DNA of 35,961 nt from Acidithiobacillus ferrivorans (GTDB lineage Bacteria; Pseudomonadota; Gammaproteobacteria; Acidithiobacillales; Acidithiobacillaceae), in assembly GCA_020723125.1 (NCBI GenBank), contig DYJM01000010.1:1-35961 (forward strand), read 5' to 3'. Within the stretch, counting starts at the first letter, position 1. Each line of letters opens with the position of its first letter. Positions 25,547 to 35,935 of the stretch are shown piece after piece. Made by a program: the position numbers and the translations under genes. The notes beneath the pieces are model-generated. The model was not told where the DNA came from, did not search any database, and worked only from the letters and a program-made list of their open reading frames with translations.

Positions 25547-27082
25547 CTACTCCTTTGCCGCATGCAGAAGATAAGTCCAGGTATTGGTCATAACCTGATT
25601 ATCGAGGGTTAAATAACAACGCACATTACTGGGTGAAGCCGTTTGCGGCTGTATGACCGCAATCACCCGCCAAAAATGATCCTTAGCATCCCATTCCAGC
25701 TTCTGGCTCAAAATCTGAGCCCCGTTTTCAGCCGTGAGATGGGCTTTAATAGGCATATTCCCGGGTAATTTCGTCAGAGCACCACCGCCAAAATCAATAA
25801 CGACCGTACGCGCACCGGCGGTTTTCGGGTCATCGCCAAGATAGGTTCCGACGGGATGGGCCAAAGGAATCAGGCCATGGTTATCCAGAAAGAAACGCAA
25901 GTTGTAGGCAAAATGCAGGGGCGTTTTCGGAGCGGGTTCCTGATCCGGAACCCAGAAAACATCAATATTGTCCATGTCCCGGTTATTGGTAGGCAGCTCA
26001 ACGAGACGTACCTGACCCTTTCCCCAGTCTCCTACCGGTTGTACCCAAACACTGGGACGACGCTGGTATTGGGTTTCAATACCCTGATAAGCGGAAAAAT
26101 CACGATCTTCCTGAATCAGACCGAAGCCTACCGGGTGATCCATGCTGTAGGTCGTAGTCTGGATTTGCAGGGGATTATCAATAGGGCGGGTCAACCATTC
26201 GCCATTACCATTGGCCATGACCAGATCGCTGGAATCATGCTGGGCAGGATGCCAGTCGCCGGCGGTAATCCCACGACCATGACCGTGCCAGTACATGCTG
26301 GTCAAAGGCGCCAGTTCAAGCACCTGTACGGGTTTACGCAAATAGATGGTGGCCTGCACCTGTACCGTCGTACTGTCACCGGGGTGGATGGTGAAGCGAT
26401 AGGCACCCGTGGCTACAGAACTATCCATGAGGGCATAAACCACCATATCCTGCGCCCCGGCCTGCGGTTTTTCGAGCCAGATCTCCTTGAAATAAGGAAA
26501 TATTTCACCTGAGGGCTGGGCCGTATCAATACCCAGACCGCGTGCTGAAGTACCATAAACGGCATGTTTACCCACCGCACGAAAGTAGGTTGCACCCAGA
26601 AAGGAAATAAATTCGTTATAGTACGGCGGAGTATTCAGGGGCGCCAACAAGCGGAATCCGGCATAACCCAGGTCACTCGGCAGATCAGCGGGAACCTTTA
26701 AATTACCAAAACTGAAGTCTCCGAGATTAAAAGGGATGGGTCGCACCTTGCCATTGACCACTTCGCGGATGACTTCAGGCTGATGAAACCAGGAACCGGG
26801 CAGGTAAAATTGTGCCTGAAAAGGCGTATTCCCGTTCTGCCACAGAGGTTTTGTGTCCTGAATCTGACTGTACTGTTCAGGGCTTAGATTTTTGAGGAAG
26901 GCAGGAATCGGCAAAGGCTTGGGATTATAATGCTTGTCTACCAGTGCCTGGGCCTTGGACTCTACGGTCCGCATGTTAAAATCAGCTGCAGATGCAACAG
27001 CGCCAAAAGCCCAGCCGGTCAGACTGAGCAGAAGGGCAAAAGCAAGCTTCGAGAAAGAGGGATGACGGTTAAAATAGTTCAT
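25547..27082 (-). CDS. opgG: Glucans biosynthesis protein OpgG
   Basis: A periplasmic protein required for branching and release of osmoregulated periplasmic glucans. Starting at ATG 27082 (MNYFNRHPSFSKLAFALLLSLTGWAFGAVASAADF), it has a clear Sec signal peptide with an AxA cleavage site before ADF; the ORF-track start 13 codons upstream would spoil this. Family motifs include LSPEQYSQIQ, FRLLAPLN, ISFLGATYFRAVG, YGTSARGLGIDTA, PLTSMYWHGHGRG, HPVGFGLIQEDRDFSAYQ, RRPSVWVQP and DNIDVFWVP. Length 511 aa. No strong ribosome-binding site is visible before the chosen ATG. It is the first gene of opgG-ORF-opgH-sel1. Confidence 0.94.
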   Translation of the reverse strand: MNYFNRHPSFSKLAFALLLSLTGWAFGAVASAADFNMRTVESKAQALVDKHYNPKPLPIPAFLKNLSPEQYSQIQDTKPLWQNGNTPFQAQFYLPGSWFHQPEVIREVVNGKVRPIPFNLGDFSFGNLKVPADLPSDLGYAGFRLLAPLNTPPYYNEFISFLGATYFRAVGKHAVYGTSARGLGIDTAQPSGEIFPYFKEIWLEKPQAGAQDMVVYALMDSSVATGAYRFTIHPGDSTTVQVQATIYLRKPVQVLELAPLTSMYWHGHGRGITAGDWHPAQHDSSDLVMANGNGEWLTRPIDNPLQIQTTTYSMDHPVGFGLIQEDRDFSAYQGIETQYQRRPSVWVQPVGDWGKGQVRLVELPTNNRDMDNIDVFWVPDQEPAPKTPLHFAYNLRFFLDNHGLIPLAHPVGTYLGDDPKTAGARTVVIDFGGGALTKLPGNMPIKAHLTAENGAQILSQKLEWDAKDHFWRVIAVIQPQTASPSNVRCYLTLDNQVMTNTWTYLLHAAKE

Positions 27083-27437
27083 GGAGGCCAATGAGCAAAT
27101 CCCGTGCCAATATATTAACAATATGTTTTTATTAGTTTTTATTAAAATTTCTGGATTTTTCTGTCGCTTAATCCCGACAGCCCATTCCCAAATTGCTCAT
27201 AAAATACGCCCGGATATATCGTGTCAGTCATCAAAAACTTTTTGGATAACATTCAACATATTGAAAATATTAATTTATCATGAATCCCTGTTAAACTGGT
27301 CCGACCGAAGGAGAGGAAAGACGGGACCCATAACTAGAATCCTGTCGTCGCTGAAAAGCAACAGGGTAATTTATAGCCTGAAATTCTTCACAAAATGCTT
27401 TTAATGAACTTTTCAATTATATGATAAGGATGGACTT
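27083..27437. other. AT-rich divergent intergenic region with possible structured leader
   Basis: This 355-bp gap between opgG and the flavoprotein gene is conspicuously AT-rich next to opgG and contains the small palindrome ATATTAACAATAT (about 27112-27124). Nearer the flavoprotein gene is a GC-richer island (27298-27367): GGTCC ... GGACC can pair around a purine-rich loop with GAAGGAGAGGAAAGA, and CCTGT ... ACAGG forms a second hairpin. It matches no riboswitch class I can recall. AAGGA seven bases before ATG 27438 is the ribosome-binding site. No ORF here looks real. Confidence 0.4.
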
Positions 27438-28867: not shown

Positions 28868-29062
28868 CAAAAACGACAGATGCCGTGGGTGCTTTGCAGC
28901 GACTTTTGTTCTGAGCCGTTGTTGTTCTTGGCGAAATCCTGCGCCCGTCAGGAGAGCTGTTTGAGCCCGCAGGGCGAGTTCTCTCCTGACAGCAGGATGA
29001 GCCTTAGAACAACAGGCAAGGAACAGTGGAGCAAAAAGCGCCCACGGCAACTGCCGTTTTCA
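28868..29062. repeat. Palindromic ~195-bp repeat element, copy 1
   Basis: This region is nearly identical to the reverse complement of 35739-35935, with about four differences in the central ~150 bp and more divergence at the ends. The element is a long imperfect palindrome: terminal arms (GCCGTGGGTGCTTT ... AAAGCGCCCACGGC), GTTGTTCT ... AGAACAAC, ATCCTGC ... GCAGGAT and GTCAGGAGAG ... CTCTCCTGAC pair around a GCCCGCAGGGC tip. It fills the gap between the convergent flavoprotein and CopD-like genes. ORF 28880-29374 in the track is an artefact of it. It may be a MITE-like element, a bidirectional terminator, or both. Confidence 0.85.
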
Positions 29063-29566: not shown

Positions 29567-30246
29567 GATTTTTTCAAATTTCCTTGCATGACTATGCTGT
29601 CCAAAAATTTCCGTGCGTCCACGAGCTCTTCCGCACAAATACTGTGATCCATGGGATAAATATGGGTACTGAGGGCGTAGCCCTGGGATTCCATGATGCC
29701 CCGGGCAATTTCCATGTATTCCAGAGGCAGAACGGCATCGGAACGACCATGTCCCCAGAAAATCGGAGTCCCCTGGGAGGCCTGGGGAAGCGTCTGGCGA
29801 AGCGGTAAATAGGCACTGAAAGCCAGCACAGCCGCCGCCGGACAAGCATGATGAAAAGCCAAATAAAGCGCCATCGCCCCGCCCTGGGAAAACCCGCCCA
29901 GTATCAAGTGTTGAGTGCCTGCCTGCTGCTGTTCATGCTCCATCAGCGCGGCGAGGCGATTCGCCATGTGTTCCATTCCCGCTGCATCTTCGCCAGAATC
30001 CCGACCCAGCCCATAAATATCATACCAGGCCCGCATTGGCCGCCCGCCATTGAGGGTGACCGGACGTACTGGGGCATCTGGGAGAACCCAGCGAAACTGT
30101 TTTTCCGGATCGACAAAGTCTGCGAGGGGAGCAAGGTCTTCCTTGGATGCGCCCAGGCCATGCAGCAACATGATGCAGGGGGCCTCCTGCTGCGCTGCAG
30201 CTCGGAACCACAATCCTTCGGGCCAGATATTTTCATTCATGGTCAT
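29563..30246 (-). CDS. Phospholipase/carboxylesterase-family alpha/beta hydrolase
   Basis: A 227-aa cytosolic serine esterase of the phospholipase/carboxylesterase group (like YpfH or acyl-protein thioesterases). It has the oxyanion region [12 protein letters not shown], nucleophile elbow GFSQGG (Ser120), acid [10 protein letters not shown] (Asp170) and base MDHSIC (His201), so the catalytic triad is complete. No signal peptide. It overlaps the sigma-54 activator by 14 nt upstream and the CopD-like gene by four downstream. Natural substrate unknown. Confidence 0.88.
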
Positions 30247-31564
30247 GTGCCTTCTTCAAGGCATCCAGCTTGCGATAAAGAGTGCGCTCACTGACACCCA
30301 GCCGGACGGCCAGACTGCGTCGATCCCCGCCAAAAGCACTCCGCGCCCACCGTAAATACTGGGCCTCCAGATCAGCCAAGGGAACAATGGCATCCACGCC
30401 GGAAATTTTGGCATGAATATCCTGTTTGGGCGGCGTGCCTTGCTCTTGCAGGGCCAGGGGCAGATGCTGGGGGAGTATCCAATGTTCATCGGCCAGCAGT
30501 GCCGCGCGTTCGAGAATGTTACGCAACTCGCGGATATTGCCCGGAAAAGTGTATTGACCCAGTAACTGTAGGGTATCAGCGTGCAGTTGCAGCCCCTTGG
30601 CTGCCGGGATGCGCTGCAAAATGGCTGCAGCCAGCAAGGGAATATCATCCAGACGATCCCGCAACGCCGGCAAAGCAATGGGGAACGTGTTGATGCGATA
30701 ATAAAGATCCTGACGGAAACGCTCCTCTGCGACCATTTTTTCCAGATGACGGTGCGTTGCTGAAATCAGTCGAAACCGGGAACGAATCGGTTCAACCCCC
30801 CCTACCCTGCGAAACGTGCCGGTTTCCAGCAGCCGCAACAATTTCACCTGCAGGTTAAGAGGAATGTCACCCACTTCGTCCAGAAACAAGGTTCCCCCAT
30901 TGGCGGCTTCCACCAAACCGGTTTTTCGGGAATGGGCCCCTGTAAATGCACCTTTTTCATGACCAAACAATTCGCTTTCAAAAAGTGTTTCCGGCAAACC
31001 GGAGCAATCGACGGTGATGAAAGGTCCGTGACTGAGATGACTGGCCTGGTGTACCGCCGCTGCAGCCAGTTCCTTGCCGGTTCCGGATTCCCCCAGAAGG
31101 AGCACTGCCGCATCACCGGGAGCCACCCGTCGAATCAGGCGCACCACCTCCCGCCAGGCCTCCGATTGGCCGACCATGGCTGGAGTCGCCCGTGACGAGT
31201 CAGCGGAAATGACATTCACCAATTCGAGAAAATAAACCACCTCTGCGCGTTCATTACGAATGGGATACACATCAATCTGAGCATTGCCCACCGCATGAGT
31301 GTGAATGACATGTTGATCCAACCCGGATTGCTGGCAGGCATCCAGAGGACAGTGGTTGCGGCCTTGCTGGCAGGAAAAACCGGCTTCAGCGAGAATTTCC
31401 GCACAACGCCGACCCTGGAGGGGTTTGCCATCTCCGAAAGCGCGCCGATAGGCTTGGTTCGCCGCCAAGACGGTGTAGTCCCGGCACAAAAGCACTGCTG
31501 GCGTACTGAAGCAGTCCAGTAGTGAAGTCATTTCCGGTCGTAATTGTTTCAGTAAATCAGTCAT
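30233..31564 (-). CDS. Sigma-54-dependent activator, PAS-AAA+-Fis
   Basis: A 443-aa enhancer-binding protein. An N-terminal PAS-like sensor (about 12-120) is followed by the AAA+ domain with Walker A GESGTGKE (158-165), the sigma-54-contact loop GAFTGA (205-210) and Walker [10 protein letters not shown] (225-233), and ends in a Fis-type helix-turn-helix ([25 protein letters not shown]). The PAS part has a tight cysteine set (Cys54, Cys65, Cys72, Cys77 with His71), suggesting metal, Fe-S or thiol redox sensing. The start is ATG 31564, just after GGGAGGTTT; the longer ORF start is unsupported. It is divergent from a -24/-12 promoter in front of the cyd genes, its likely target. Confidence 0.92.
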
Positions 31565-31624: not shown

Positions 31625-31638
31625 TGCCATTTTTGGCA
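31625..31638. promoter_or_regulatory. Inverted repeat TGCCA-N4-TGGCA, candidate enhancer site
   Basis: TGCCATTTTTGGCA lies about 160 bp upstream of the predicted sigma-54 transcription start, at a distance normal for enhancer-binding-protein sites. It is also about 60 bp upstream of the activator start, so autoregulation is possible. Confidence 0.4.
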
Positions 31639-31682: not shown

Positions 31683-31727
31683 ACTGTAATTATAACAGTA
31701 TAAATAACATCATGAATTAATGATGTT
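31683..31727. promoter_or_regulatory. Pair of AT-rich inverted repeats upstream of the sigma-54 promoter
   Basis: ACTGT-N7-ACAGT (31683-31699) and AACATCAT-gaatta-ATGATGTT (31706-31727) sit about 100 and 75 bp upstream of the predicted start. Either could be a regulator or IHF-type site. The second is followed by a T-run and could also act as a weak terminator. Confidence 0.35.
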
Positions 31728-31765: not shown

Positions 31766-31781
31766 TGGCACAGAGTTTGCT
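31766..31781 (+). promoter_or_regulatory. Sigma-54 (-24/-12) promoter of the cyd operon
   Basis: TGGCAC-AGAGT-TTGCT matches the sigma-54 consensus TGGCAC-N5-TTGCW at every conserved position and spacing. The start of transcription should be near 31792, about 27 nt before the preferred ATG of the MBL-fold gene. The divergently encoded sigma-54 activator supports function. Confidence 0.82.
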
Positions 31782-31818: not shown

Positions 31819-32544
31819 ATGATATTTCGACAATTATGTCATTCTCCGAAAGGCGAACTCAGTTATTTAATGGGCGATCCTGTTACCCGGGAAGCGGTCA
31901 TTATAGATCCCGTACCTGCACTGCTGGAAAATCTCGAACTCTTTGTTCAGGAACGGGGGCTAATTCTCAAATACATACTGCAGACCCACCATGATGCCGA
32001 GCTGATGCGTGCAGCGGAACATCTAAAGACATCTACCGGGGCGCGGGTACTGGCTCATGAAAGCAATACAAACAGTCAGATTGATCTGCGTTTGCGCCAT
32101 GGTGATCGCCTTTATTTTGGCGAAGAAAGCCTGCAGGTTTTGCATACTCCCGGACAAAGTCCCTGCGCCCTCACTTACCATTGGGAGGATCGCCTGTTTA
32201 CTGGAAAAACCTTATTGGTCAACAGTACTCTGCCCTGCCCCAGCAGCGATGACGCGCAGATTTTATATCAAAGCATTACCCAACGATTAATGACATTTCC
32301 AGGGGAAACCCTGGTCTACCCAGGTCTCGAAACCAAGGGACGACGCCTGACCAGCATCGAAGAAGTCCGCCGCAAAGACAACTGGTTCCATAACCAAAAT
32401 GGACATCGGGAAATTTTTCAAAGGTATTCCCGCCTGTTCACCAATAGCACCAGTAAAAGCAGTAAGGCAGTAAAAGAACTCGGAACACCTGATGAAGAGG
32501 TGCACCGTTACACGCCGGACCGGAACAACCCGGTTTCATTGTAG
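31819..32544 (+). CDS. ETHE1-like MBL-fold protein lacking metal ligands (probable pseudoenzyme)
   Basis: A 241-aa protein whose sequence follows persulfide dioxygenase (ETHE1) closely: MIFRQL, SYLMGDPVTREAVIIDPV, LKYILQTH, HGDRLYFGEESLQVLHTPG, RLFTG and TLVYPG. Yet the ligands are changed. THxHADH is THHDAEL (residues 56-62), TPGH is TPGQ (Gln113), FTGD is FTGK (Lys130) and PxHD is PGLE (Leu170). Only His57 of the Fe-binding His/His/Asp set remains, so dioxygenase activity is unlikely. The ORF-track start at 31720 lies upstream of the sigma-54 promoter. ATG 31819 is downstream of it and gives the family N-terminus. cydA follows 10 bp later. It is more likely a binding or regulatory protein; the C-terminal tail (200-241) is unlike ETHE1. 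Confidence 0.85.
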   Translation: MIFRQLCHSPKGELSYLMGDPVTREAVIIDPVPALLENLELFVQERGLILKYILQTHHDAELMRAAEHLKTSTGARVLAHESNTNSQIDLRLRHGDRLYFGEESLQVLHTPGQSPCALTYHWEDRLFTGKTLLVNSTLPCPSSDDAQILYQSITQRLMTFPGETLVYPGLETKGRRLTSIEEVRRKDNWFHNQNGHREIFQRYSRLFTNSTSKSSKAVKELGTPDEEVHRYTPDRNNPVSL

Positions 32545-32554
32545 GAGGATGTTC

Positions 32555-34189
32555 ATGGATATGTTAATCAATCCCACGGTGGTCGAGCTGTCGCGTCTGC
32601 AGTTTGCGCTGACAGCCCTGTATCACTTTCTGTTTGTACCCCTGACTCTGGGCCTGTCATTTCTGCTGGCCACCATGGAGTCGGTTTATGTCATCACGGG
32701 GAAACCCATTTACAAGGAAATGACCCAGTTCTGGGGCAAGCTTTTCGCCATCAATTTTGCGCTGGGTGTGGCCACGGGCCTGACCATGGAATTTGAGTTC
32801 GGTACCAACTGGTCCATGTACTCCCATTTCGTCGGAGATATTTTTGGTACGCCTCTGGCTATTGAAGGCCTGATGGCGTTTTTCATGGAATCCACCTTTG
32901 TGGGCATCATGTTTTTTGGCTGGGACCGGATCAGTGCCAAGGCCCATCTGGTCGTGACCTATCTGGTGGCGCTGGGCTCCAACCTTTCCGCATTGTGGAT
33001 TCTGATCGCCAATGGCTTCATGCAGGACCCCAGAGGCGGAACCTTTGATCCCAATACCATGCGCCTGGAATTCAGCAGCTTTGTCCAGTTGATTTTCAAT
33101 GAAGACGCTCAGGCGAAATTTGTCCATACCTCCATCGCCGGTTTTGTGACCGGATCCATGTTTGTCATGGGGATCAGTGCCTTCTATCTGCTCACCAACA
33201 AGCGCAAGGATATTGCCCTGCGTTCATTTCGTATTGCCGCCGTTTTCGGAGTGATTTCCACCATTGGTGTGGTGACGCTGGGCGATGCACTGGGCTTCAT
33301 TGACGTCAAAGCCCAACCCATGAAAGTGGCGGCCATGGAAGCCATCTGGAATACAGACTACAACACGGCCTCTGCGCCCTGGAATCTGATTGCTTTCCCG
33401 GATAAGGCTGCAGGTAAAAACCTTTTTGAAATTGGCATTCCCTATGTGCTGACGCCTCTGCTGACCCACTCGGAGGACACCGTCATCCCCGGTATTCATC
33501 AATTGGTGGATGAAGCCAAGCCCAAAGTAGTTAATGGCATCAAGGCCATGGTTGCCCTGAAGGAATATAATCATGACCACAGTAACGTGCAGGCTTTGGC
33601 GACCTTCAAACAGTATCAGGCAGACATGGGCTATGGCTTTCTGGCCATGCAGTACGCCCCTGATCAGGACCTGAAAAAGGTGGATGCCAGCAATCTCGCC
33701 AGCGTCGTGGACAAAACGGCTCACGAGACGGTTCCCAATGTCTGGGTAGAATTTTGGGCATTCCGTATCATGGTGGCTTTAGGCTTTATCATGCTCGCCA
33801 TTTTTGCCTTTGCCGCCTATTTCAGCCTCAAAAATGAGGTGGAAAAGCATCCCCTGCTCCTGAAAGTCGCCTTATGGAGTATTCCATTACCCTGGTTTGC
33901 CTGTGAATTTGGCTGGATTACGGCAGAAAATGGTCGGCAACCCTGGACGGTTTACGATATGTTGCCCACCTTTGTGTCAGCTTCCAGTCACAGCGTCGGC
34001 TACATGATTTTCTCCCTGATCGGTTTTGTACTGCTTTACAGCTCGTTCATCGCCGCAGAAATGTATCTGATGTTCAAATACGCGCGTCTTGGCCCGCAAG
34101 CCAGTCATCATGGTCATGACAAAGCGCCTGCGGGGGGTGGCATGGCCGGTCAGCCCGCTTTTGCCAAGCCCAGTCTGGCCAAGAAATAA
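32555..34189 (+). CDS. cydA: Cytochrome bd ubiquinol oxidase subunit I
   Basis: The catalytic quinol-oxidising subunit of the bd oxidase, with about nine TM helices and hemes b558, b595 and d. Expected ligands are present: His24 (RLQFALTALYH), His191 (KFVHTSIAGFVTGSM) and Met406 (FWAFRIMVALGF). Glu104 and Glu112 in AIEGLMAFFMES and GRQPW (460-464) are also there. The extended Q-loop around 310-400 resembles E. coli CydA, i.e. the long form rather than the short cyanide-insensitive type. The start is ATG 32555 with AGGAGG six bases upstream; the ORF-track start at 32492 lies inside the MBL-fold gene. Length 544 aa. Confidence 0.96.
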   Translation: MDMLINPTVVELSRLQFALTALYHFLFVPLTLGLSFLLATMESVYVITGKPIYKEMTQFWGKLFAINFALGVATGLTMEFEFGTNWSMYSHFVGDIFGTPLAIEGLMAFFMESTFVGIMFFGWDRISAKAHLVVTYLVALGSNLSALWILIANGFMQDPRGGTFDPNTMRLEFSSFVQLIFNEDAQAKFVHTSIAGFVTGSMFVMGISAFYLLTNKRKDIALRSFRIAAVFGVISTIGVVTLGDALGFIDVKAQPMKVAAMEAIWNTDYNTASAPWNLIAFPDKAAGKNLFEIGIPYVLTPLLTHSEDTVIPGIHQLVDEAKPKVVNGIKAMVALKEYNHDHSNVQALATFKQYQADMGYGFLAMQYAPDQDLKKVDASNLASVVDKTAHETVPNVWVEFWAFRIMVALGFIMLAIFAFAAYFSLKNEVEKHPLLLKVALWSIPLPWFACEFGWITAENGRQPWTVYDMLPTFVSASSHSVGYMIFSLIGFVLLYSSFIAAEMYLMFKYARLGPQASHHGHDKAPAGGGMAGQPAFAKPSLAKK

Positions 34190-34201: not shown

Positions 34202-35335
34202 ATGGATCTCTATATTGGACTGAAAGTATTGTGGTGGGTGCTGCTGGGCGTCCTGCTCATGGGCCTTGCCATCATGGTGGGCATGGATATGGGTGTCGGT
34301 ACCCTGCTGCGCTTCGTCGGTAAAAATGACGGCGAACGCCGCCAGGCCCTGAATGTGGTGGGTCCCCATTGGGACGGTAATCAGGTCTGGTTCATCCTGG
34401 GCGGCGGGGCCATTTTTGCGGCCTGGCCAACCCTGTATGCCACTTCTTTCTCGGTTTTTTACATTGTCATGATCCTGCTGCTGTTCAGCATGATTTTGCG
34501 TCCGGTGGCTTTTGAATACCGCTCCAAAGTGGCCTCCAGCAAGTGGCGGGAGTCCTGGGACTGGGTTTTCCTGGTCTCCGGCTTTTTGCCCATGTTTGTC
34601 TACGGGGCAGCTATCGGTAATATTCTCGAAGGCGTCGGCTTTCATTTCGGTTGGGATGGTCAGTATTACCAGACGGAGTCTTTCATCTGGTATCTGCTGA
34701 ACCCCTTTGCCATTCTCAGCGGTTTATTGGCAGTCAGTATGTCGGTATATCAGGGCGGGGCCATGTTGATGCTGCGCGGTACCGACCCCATTGCTTCTCG
34801 CGCCCGGAATTACGCCAGCGTTGCCGGTATCATCGCCATTGTGCTGTTTATCATTGGTGGCTTCATGATTTCCGGCATGACCGGGTATAGCCTCATCAGC
34901 GGGGATCCGGGAATGCCCGCCAACGCCGTCAGTGGTCAGGTGGTGCATGCGGTTTCTGGTGCCTGGCTGGATAATTATGCGGCACAGCCCATCTTGTGGA
35001 TTATTCCGTTGCTGGCTATCGCCGGGATGTTGCTCGGTGCAATGATGCTGCGCGCCAACAAACCCATTCTCGGCTGGTGGTTGGGAGCCATTGCCTGGAT
35101 TGGCATTTTAGGCACGGTTGCAGCTTCCATGTTCCCATTCCTGATGCCTTCGTCTGACAATCTCAACCAGAGTTTGACGGTATGGAATGCTTCGGGAAGT
35201 CGTTACAATCTGATCTGGATGACCATTTTCACGCTCATTTTCGTGCCTACGATTCTGGCCTACACCACCTGGTGTTTTCGGGTCATGCGCGGCAAGGTCA
35301 ACCCGCCCAACCCCGCCGATGACCATGCTTATTAA
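34202..35335 (+). CDS. cydB: Cytochrome bd ubiquinol oxidase subunit II
   Basis: The second core subunit of the bd oxidase, pseudo-symmetric to CydA, with eight or nine TM helices and 377 aa. Family motifs include VGMDMGVGTLLRFVGKND, VVGPHWDGNQVWFILGGGAIFAAWPTLYAT, LRPVAFEYRSK, LLNPFAILSGLL and the C-terminal NASGSRYNLIWMTIFTLIFVPTILAYTTW. The start has AAGGAGG seven bases upstream. It is 12 bp after cydA and 15 bp before the extended cydX. Confidence 0.96.
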   Translation: MDLYIGLKVLWWVLLGVLLMGLAIMVGMDMGVGTLLRFVGKNDGERRQALNVVGPHWDGNQVWFILGGGAIFAAWPTLYATSFSVFYIVMILLLFSMILRPVAFEYRSKVASSKWRESWDWVFLVSGFLPMFVYGAAIGNILEGVGFHFGWDGQYYQTESFIWYLLNPFAILSGLLAVSMSVYQGGAMLMLRGTDPIASRARNYASVAGIIAIVLFIIGGFMISGMTGYSLISGDPGMPANAVSGQVVHAVSGAWLDNYAAQPILWIIPLLAIAGMLLGAMMLRANKPILGWWLGAIAWIGILGTVAASMFPFLMPSSDNLNQSLTVWNASGSRYNLIWMTIFTLIFVPTILAYTTWCFRVMRGKVNPPNPADDHAY

Positions 35336-35350
35336 GGGAGCAACTCAGTC

Positions 35351-35554
35351 ATGAAAAATCTTTTCACTTTTGTCGGGATGGCCCTCATCTTGGCGTTATC
35401 CCTGTTTCTGGCGGTCATTACCGGCGACTATGGCCCCTGGTATTTCGCCTGGTTGGTGGGTACGACCATGATCGTGATGATCGCCGTCGCCGGTGCGGTC
35501 ATGTATGAAAAACAGGATGCGGAAAGTCAGGACAAAACCGGACATTCACATTAA
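35351..35554 (+). CDS. cydX: Extended CydX-like small subunit
   Basis: A 67-aa membrane protein. Residues 30-52 (WYFAWLVGTTMIVMIAVAGAVMY) carry the WYFAWxLG signature of CydX, which normally begins at its second residue. Here 28 extra residues (MKNLFTFVGMALILALSLFLAVITGDYG) form an additional TM helix. The soluble tail EKQDAESQDKTGHSH is also CydX-like in composition. AAGGGAG lies ten bases before the ATG. There is no start codon directly before WYFAW, so the extension is real or begins at Met10 at the latest. Its role is presumably stabilising the oxidase heme centre, by analogy. Confidence 0.8.
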   Translation: MKNLFTFVGMALILALSLFLAVITGDYGPWYFAWLVGTTMIVMIAVAGAVMYEKQDAESQDKTGHSH

Positions 35555-35565
35555 GGAGCAAGACC

Positions 35566-35655
35566 ATGCATCTGGAGGATTATATTTTCTTTTTACCCAT
35601 TGTGTATTTTTTCATCGCCGTCATCGCGTATTTTTATACACGCAAGCGGTTTTGA
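35566..35655 (+). CDS. 29-aa single-TM protein, candidate extra bd-oxidase subunit
   Basis: This ORF is too short for the ORF track. MHLEDYIFFLPIVYFFIAVIAYFYTRKRF has one hydrophobic helix and a positively charged TRKRF end, so the C-terminus probably faces the cytoplasm. AAGGAG lies seven bases before the ATG, 11 bp after cydX, and the operon terminator follows. The size equals that of the E. coli fourth bd-I subunit (CydH/YnhF, 29 aa), but I see no clear sequence similarity. The role as an oxidase subunit is inferred from position and form. Confidence 0.7.
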   Translation: MHLEDYIFFLPIVYFFIAVIAYFYTRKRF

Positions 35656-35738: not shown

Positions 35739-35935
35739 CTAAAAAGGGCAGTTGTCGTGGGTGCTTTTTGCTCCATTGTTCCTTGCCTGTTGTTCTAAGG
35801 CTCATCCTGCTGTCAGGAGAGAACTCGCCCTTCGGGCTCAAACAGCTCTCCTGACGGGCGCAGGATTTCGCCAAGAACAACAACGGCTCGAAACAAAAGT
35901 CGCTGCAAAGCACCCACGACAACTGCCCTTTTTAG
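35739..35935. repeat. Palindromic ~197-bp repeat element, copy 2
   Basis: The perfect terminal inverted repeats are 29 bp long, running from CTAAAAAGGG at the left to CCCTTTTTAG at the right, and contain AGGGCAGTTGTCGTGGG. Inside, GTTGTTCT, ATCCTGC and GTCAGGAGAG each pair with their complement, so the whole element can fold on itself around 35837. It is the inverted counterpart of 28868-29062. ORF 35701-35922 (-) in the track is an artefact of it. It lies just beyond the cyd terminator. Flanking TA bases could be an IS630/mariner-type target duplication, but this is unproven. Confidence 0.88.

Follow-up and report, generated by a model that had tools for sequence, protein, structure and literature searches.

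Which part is played by a relative of persulfide dioxygenase (PDO) that has lost its catalytic metal site and stands at the head of a respiratory operon? The question is raised by a contig of Acidithiobacillus ferrivorans (DYJM01000010.1), of which positions 1 to 35,961 were analysed; this whole stretch of 35,961 nucleotides is referred to as the window. An open reading frame on its forward strand (31819..32544) encodes a PDO/ETHE1-like protein of 241 amino acids, starts with MIFRQLC and stops 10 bases ahead of the cydA start codon at 32555. A first-pass annotation had described an ETHE1-like protein with a destroyed metal site heading a cytochrome bd operon and had proposed a binding or sensing role for it. 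Our analysis suggests that such metal-less or “dead” PDOs of acid-loving sulfur bacteria probably have a new, non-enzymatic job in respiration, and the oxidase operons containing them look, from their sequences, to be controlled by a sulfane-sulfur-sensing activator.

The position at the head of a bd operon was confirmed by the genes directly downstream, the products of which belong to the CydA and CydB families of cytochrome bd quinol oxidase. These are cydA (subunit I, 544 amino acids; 32555..34189, + strand; Pfam PF01654, 5.3e-164) and cydB (subunit II, 377 amino acids; 34202..35335, +; PF02322, 3.5e-93; TIGR00203 above cut-off). They are followed by a gene for a small membrane protein of 67 amino acids (35351..35554, +), which is conserved 3′ of cydB and shows a borderline match to CydX/YbgT (PF08173, 7.6e-06), and, as read from the letters, by a possible membrane peptide of 29 residues (MHLEDYIFFLPIVYFFIAVIAYFYTRKRF; 35566..35655, +) as the last gene of the operon. 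An intergenic repeat with a shared reading (MPWVLCSDFC.../MSWVLCSDFC...) is present in the window in two copies of opposite orientation (about 28880-29000 and 35770-35930).

Loss of the iron site and retention of the protein

The best matches of the protein in the PDB are structures of ETHE1 or PDO (9rhq, 3.4e-33; 4ysb, 5.5e-33; human ETHE1 4chl, 9e-21). ETHE1 structures are also the top matches of its AlphaFold2 model, with 4ysb being the closest (TM 0.72/0.77). The confidence of this model is mostly above 85 across most of residues 1-170, averages 58 at residues 131-140, and the model is unreliable beyond about residue 190. The ETHE1-like backbone recognized in the first pass is borne out by these matches, and the metallo-beta-lactamase fold of the PDO type is present.

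For the active site, residues are numbered according to the A. caldus enzyme AcPDO, a numbering nearly identical to that of the window protein. The iron of AcPDO is bound by H57, H113 and D130 and surrounded by a second shell of H59, D61, H62 and H171; hardly any activity is left in variants of H113 and D130, and R139A, D141A and H171A are inactive (PMC6060420). Only one of the three ligands, H57, is left in the window protein, where Q113 replaces the histidine and K130 the aspartate, and a 2-His-1-Asp iron site (H57, H113, D130) is therefore missing. The second shell is lost as well (D59, E61, L62, L170), the essential R139 and D141 of the substrate-site network are replaced by P139 and P141, and the glutathione-binding residues are absent, too. 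The canonical site residues are present in all 30 intact PDOs compared. The alterations listed in the first pass (THHDAEL, Gln113, Lys130, Leu170) are all real, and the HxHxDH motif has indeed lost its later positions, although not its first histidine. Judged by these residues, the protein is a pseudoenzyme that should not oxidise persulfides, and it presumably carries no metal in vivo.

A biochemical counterpart may exist in A. caldus. In A5904_1112, a protein of 243 amino acids, only the residues corresponding to H57 and H62 are left of the site, and SDO activity was not detected between pH 3 and 10 (PMC5584763, 2017). This protein is likely an ortholog of the window protein, because its length and motif fit the copy L070_G017 (243 amino acids, THHDETH) and its numbering adjoins ACAL_1111/1110, the cydA and cydB genes of A. 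caldus (PMC3440390). The pI does not match in this identification, with 8.3 computed here and 7.09 published.

Intact orthologs of the same “cyd clade” were found in 22 genomes of Acidithiobacillaceae, comprising Acidithiobacillus and other genera of the family, and the site is lost in every one of the 22 aligned copies. A genus-level scan revealed at least one intact metal-less copy in 15 of 17 genomes and an intact cyd-clade copy in 13 of them. The gene is directly followed by cydA in 20 of the 22 intact copies, and a FisR-like regulator gene lies divergently on the opposite flank of those 20, where the contig extends that far, giving the order FisR-like <-> PDO-like - cydA - cydB across the clade. 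Substitutions thus recur next to cydAB, as the first-pass annotation had asked to be checked. Pairwise dN/dS values of 0.08-0.18 are comparable to those of the neighbouring regulator and esterase genes, and the PDO-like gene evolves fast compared with cydA. Given these values and the intact orthologs with recurring loss, a decaying pseudogene was rejected for the window copy, and selective loss as opposed to random decay, claimed earlier, is upheld. Relatives with intact ligands next to a decaying window copy were not what we found; two genomes (G001 and G002) hold broken copies.

The pattern of conservation within the protein separates the old pocket from the rest. Positions 59, 61, 113, 130, 141 and 170 differ strongly between species, and 61, 130 and 141 rank among the most variable of the protein (94th entropy percentile for 61, 90th for 130). 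H57, the first histidine of the HxHxDH motif and itself an iron ligand, is invariant in 22/22 cyd-clade copies and is replaced in pet-linked and some cyo-linked paralogues (described below). Nine residues occur in at least 85% of the dead copies and in at most 20% of canonical PDOs. Cys116 is invariant in all 36 metal-less copies of the main set and occurs in none of the 30 canonical PDOs; it is absent from the two most divergent FisR-linked copies (L217, of a sister family, and L216) and was therefore rejected as a universal hallmark. The pocket sites vary while T56, H57, C116 and R175 are among the positions that stay fixed; the dead PDO is thus retained for something other than its former pocket. 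This variability does not support the idea, taken from the first pass, that the metal site has given way to a conserved pocket for sensing, nor does it support sensing of glutathione status: with the former ligand positions variable and the glutathione-binding residues gone, recognition of glutathione or GSSH in the old active site appears unlikely.

Promoter, dyad and putative regulator of the oxidase operons

A sigma-54 promoter of the -24/-12 type (TGGCACAGAGTTTGCT; 31766..31781, +; exact match) starts 53 bases 5′ of the start codon of the PDO-like gene. Such promoters are found at -46 to -62 in 23/23 cyd-clade loci, a frameshifted one included, and at copies outside the family, while six of seven cyo-linked loci show the weaker form TGG-N9-TTGC. 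None was found at three canonical PDO genes. About 100-145 bases upstream of the promoter sits the dyad TGCCAN4TGGCA, which is common to the cyd and cyo operons and represents a putative site of the FisR-like activator (TGCCATTTTTGGCA; 31625..31638 in the window, no strand assigned). It is exact at 12 of 23 cyd-clade loci (one mismatch at seven) and at three of seven cyo-linked loci (one mismatch at another three), and four Gallionellaceae-type copies have it with a 3-base spacer. An exact dyad appeared in at most 1.5% of mononucleotide shuffles, and a pattern search of the own genome returned the window locus as the only exact dyad near a perfect sigma-54 site. The -24/-12 promoter and the upstream dyad shared by the cyd and cyo operons are new here. 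Another, AT-rich perfect dyad (AACATCATGAATTAATGATGTT, 31706-31727) was rejected as activator site as it was not found in orthologs or relatives. A second perfect match to the sigma-54 promoter is located at 27094-27109 (-), near the start of an opgG/mdoG-like gene (25547-27121).

The regulator gene divergent from the PDO-like gene (30233..31564, -) encodes 443 amino acids with an N-terminal sensor domain (C54, C65, C72, C77), a sigma-54 AAA+ domain (PF00158, 4.5e-67) and a Fis-type HTH (PF02954, 1.5e-05). C54, C65 and C72 match the C53-C64-C71 spacing of FisR and are conserved across the family. The protein is 49% identical to a regulator of Cupriavidus metallidurans beside pdo-sqr, where the regulator gene is transcribed divergently from a PDO gene and an SQR-like gene comes next; in the window, the neighbour is a dead pdo and no sqr was seen beside the activator gene. 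By domains and cysteines, the activator is FisR-like, which is a further new finding. In FisR, sulfane sulfur leads to a Cys53-Cys64 tetrasulfide (PMC9495516), and sulfane sulfur may be the signal here as well, in which case the dead PDO is probably induced by it. The earlier suggestion of a link to sulfur status gains support from this regulator and its sigma-54 promoter. As the dyad is common to both oxidase operons, one regulator may serve both. In A. ferrooxidans, cydAB and cyoABCD are both expressed at a higher level on sulfur than on iron (PMC2754497); a regulator is not named in that literature.

Paralogues, degenerate relatives and exceptions

A separate metal-less clade is found directly 5′ of cyoA-cyoB-cyoC, the genes of a bo3-type quinol oxidase (Pfam COX2 with COX_ARM, COX1, COX3). 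A third has two members, one in another context on a short contig and the other, from A. ferrivorans, preceding a petI-like bc1 operon (L106:7551-13716) with the order 152-aa unknown gene, cytochrome c, short-chain dehydrogenase, Rieske protein, cytochrome b and cytochrome c1. Neither the sigma-54 promoter nor the dyad was found at this bc1-linked locus, and no FisR gene lies beside cyo-linked or pet-linked copies. A dead PDO seems to be missing at the other cyo paralogues in the genus, which are about 61-67% identical. These paralogues before cyoABCD and before a bc1 operon are reported here for the first time. The cyd, cyo and pet clades form one Acidithiobacillaceae branch (support 100/99), and therefore one loss followed by duplication explains the dead PDOs of this family.

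Ligand-altered PDOs were also detected by the genome scan in Sideroxydans and Sideroxyarcus MAGs, in one further gammaproteobacterial MAG and in NAT125 (L161), which is sister to the Acidithiobacillaceae branch (97/94). They adjoin a FisR-like gene with cydAB nearby, where the contig extends that far; next to the canonical PDOs from the same scan, cydAB was not detected. In Sideroxyarcus, the dead-PDO gene is followed by a COX1-family gene resembling ccoN, and a class-wide search with this copy gave five matches outside the family (E <1e-52). The Gallionellaceae-type copies are placed elsewhere in the tree and, bearing long branches in mind, their sequences may reflect an independent loss; in two of them the three iron ligands are complete and the losses are confined to second-shell residues. 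A survey of 20 additional FisR-like loci of the class revealed a very degenerate PDO-like gene before cydAB (L217), a partial one behind cydB (L232) and an intact PDO with SQR (L233), and at L216 a PDO-like gene lies beside a FisR-like gene with no cydAB found nearby. Degenerate PDOs at FisR-like loci elsewhere, most of them with cydAB, are likewise new here. Several FisR-like cydAB loci elsewhere have no dead PDO. In Pseudoalteromonas (L190:2475-7293), a related FisR-like regulator gene is divergent from cydP-cydAB-cydX without a PDO gene, and L083:7525-12359 has the gene of a canonical PDO (THLHADH) after that of a Crp-type regulator, near a different, CIO-like cydAB (24-36% identical).

Within Acidithiobacillaceae, several exceptions suggest how the arrangement may be lost. 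G012 and G014 have dead PDO, FisR gene and promoter intact, and a convergent thiC-like gene takes the place of cydA downstream (L059 and L061:9583-12075, respectively); cydA has no match in G014 and only one in G012, at a contig edge. Their two copies differ at 18 sites (dN 0.018, dS 0.049, ratio about 0.37), and constraint in the absence of a following cydAB looks weaker, as far as so few changes tell. G002, G004 and G005 keep FisR and lack the corresponding cydA and cyd-clade copy, a distribution which had suggested strict co-loss; this was dropped in view of G014 and G012. Since these two keep the dead PDO without cydAB, and G004 and G005 have FisR followed by the thiC-like gene, the loss looks stepwise, with cydAB going before the dead PDO. 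In G001 (A. concretivorus), the cyd-clade copy is split by a one-base frameshift, either a recent loss or a sequencing error (L062:9056-9779), with cydAB intact, and in G002 a frameshifted cyo-linked remnant lies between the sigma-54 promoter and cyoA (L282:4694-6344). Given these two cases, the dead PDO is dispensable in some lineages.

Possible roles and comparison with known systems

The explanation we prefer, tentatively and at slightly less than an even chance, is a non-catalytic accessory protein of quinol oxidases, encoded in a sigma-54 operon under FisR-like control by sulfane sulfur; a role at the oxidase is suggested because dead PDOs recur at quinol-oxidase operons. This PDO/ETHE1 descendant has lost the residues of its mononuclear iron centre and glutathione site and with them, presumably, persulfide oxidation. 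The activator would sense sulfane sulfur through its C54-C65(-C72) cysteine set and bind TGCCAN4TGGCA upstream of the PDO-like gene, so that PDO-like gene and bd quinol oxidase would be switched on together when sulfide or sulfane sulfur builds up. The same layout of promoter, putative activator site, dead PDO and oxidase is present at cyoABCD. The dead PDO would then serve the oxidase as an adaptor or help in its protection or assembly, and Cys116, which is nearly universal and may have a function of its own, could be involved in this. In favor of this reading we count the ligand loss in 22/22 cyd-clade orthologs, the inactivity of A5904_1112 (PMC5584763), the dN/dS values, synteny, the spread of one branch to cyo and pet operons, the shared promoter and dyad, the FisR-type cysteine spacing, the seemingly weaker constraint in G012 and G014, the higher levels of both oxidases on sulfur in A. 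ferrooxidans (PMC2754497), and the distribution of Cys116. Against it count the copies without cydA behind them (G012/G014), the broken copies (G001/G002), the missing Cys116 in L217 and L216, the cyo paralogues and FisR-like cydAB loci without dead PDO, and the Gallionellaceae-type copies with all three iron ligands. Its far-reaching form, a new sulfane-sulfur-responsive accessory family which binds bd, bo3 and perhaps bc1 complexes, carries or senses persulfide on Cys116 and, controlled by FisR, ties the function of the oxidase to sulfur status, is unlikely on present data.

That G014 keeps the gene without cydAB, and that G002 has a remnant in front of cyoA, speaks against a strict requirement and would be compatible with a partner of FisR or a relic. 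A dead PDO which binds the FisR-like activator or titrates its signal, and so tunes its own operon, is a minor possibility: the two genes adjoin, usually divergently, in Acidithiobacillaceae, Gallionellaceae and other gammaproteobacteria, the pairing holds at L216 and G012/G014 even where cydAB is not found nearby or downstream, and the FisR-like gene of Cupriavidus pairs with an intact pdo. However, cyo-linked and pet-linked copies have no such neighbour, and G002 has retained FisR in the absence of any intact dead PDO. Fast evolution relative to cydA, the variable active site, the broken copies of G001 and G002, extreme degeneration in L217 and the stranded copy of G014 would also suit an evolutionary relic or leader ORF, left at a FisR promoter and maintained chiefly because it serves the oxidase genes in their expression or translational coupling. 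We consider this rather unlikely, in view of dN/dS values (0.08-0.18) similar to those of the regulator and esterase neighbours, the nine residues typical of dead copies, and retention at a second oxidase operon.

Two further explanations keep a function in the former active site. The persulfide or sulfide sensor proposed in the first pass could draw on the retained scaffold, on H57 in the cyd clade and on the FisR-like nature of the regulator, but the variation of old ligand and glutathione-binding positions between species renders it quite improbable. A rearranged site, built for instance from H57 and C116, neither of which varies in the cyd clade, could still make the protein an enzyme or a metal protein. 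This is very improbable: SDO activity is absent from the likely ortholog of A. caldus (PMC5584763), pet-linked and some cyo-linked copies have another residue in place of H57, and AcPDO is nearly inactive without H113 or D130 (PMC6060420).

With the accessory protein as preferred reading, the locus would connect sulfane-sulfur sensing directly, at the genetic level, with the terminal oxidases of bioleaching acidophiles, in which bd and bo3 oxidases are known to be higher on sulfur. What had been one inactive protein of A. caldus becomes a pseudoenzyme found across the family at a conserved genomic position, and with a predicted activator site and promoter at hand, the regulon can be put to the test. 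The open-access literature, which leaves most subscription papers outside its reach, gave no report joining FisR, dead PDO and oxidase operons.

One of the closest known systems is A5904_1112 of A. caldus, very likely the ortholog, with the same residues lost and no activity in the published assay; it differs in being published as not co-localised with sulfur genes, and cyd, bo3 oxidase and FisR-type control are unmentioned (PMC5584763). The type I PDO/ETHE1 enzymes (AcPDO, human ETHE1, M. xanthus 4ysb) share sequence, fold and most scaffold motifs with the window protein, but the latter is left with one of the three Fe ligands and has neither the second shell nor the residues for GSH binding; its last 50 residues are unlike theirs and of low model confidence. 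The Cupriavidus FisR system with sqr-pdo resembles the locus in having a FisR-type sigma-54 activator, with cysteines spaced as C53/C64/C71, whose gene diverges from that of a PDO, whereas the window has a dead PDO, and cydAB instead of sqr. Pseudoalteromonas and others have a related FisR-like activator beside bd oxidase genes, but without a dead PDO in between. In Acinetobacter baumannii, a FisR system and a sulfide-tolerant CydAB belong to one sulfide response; there, FisR is described for the sqr-pdo1 operon and without the regulatory cysteines, and a dead PDO is not described in the cyd operon (PMC7315123).
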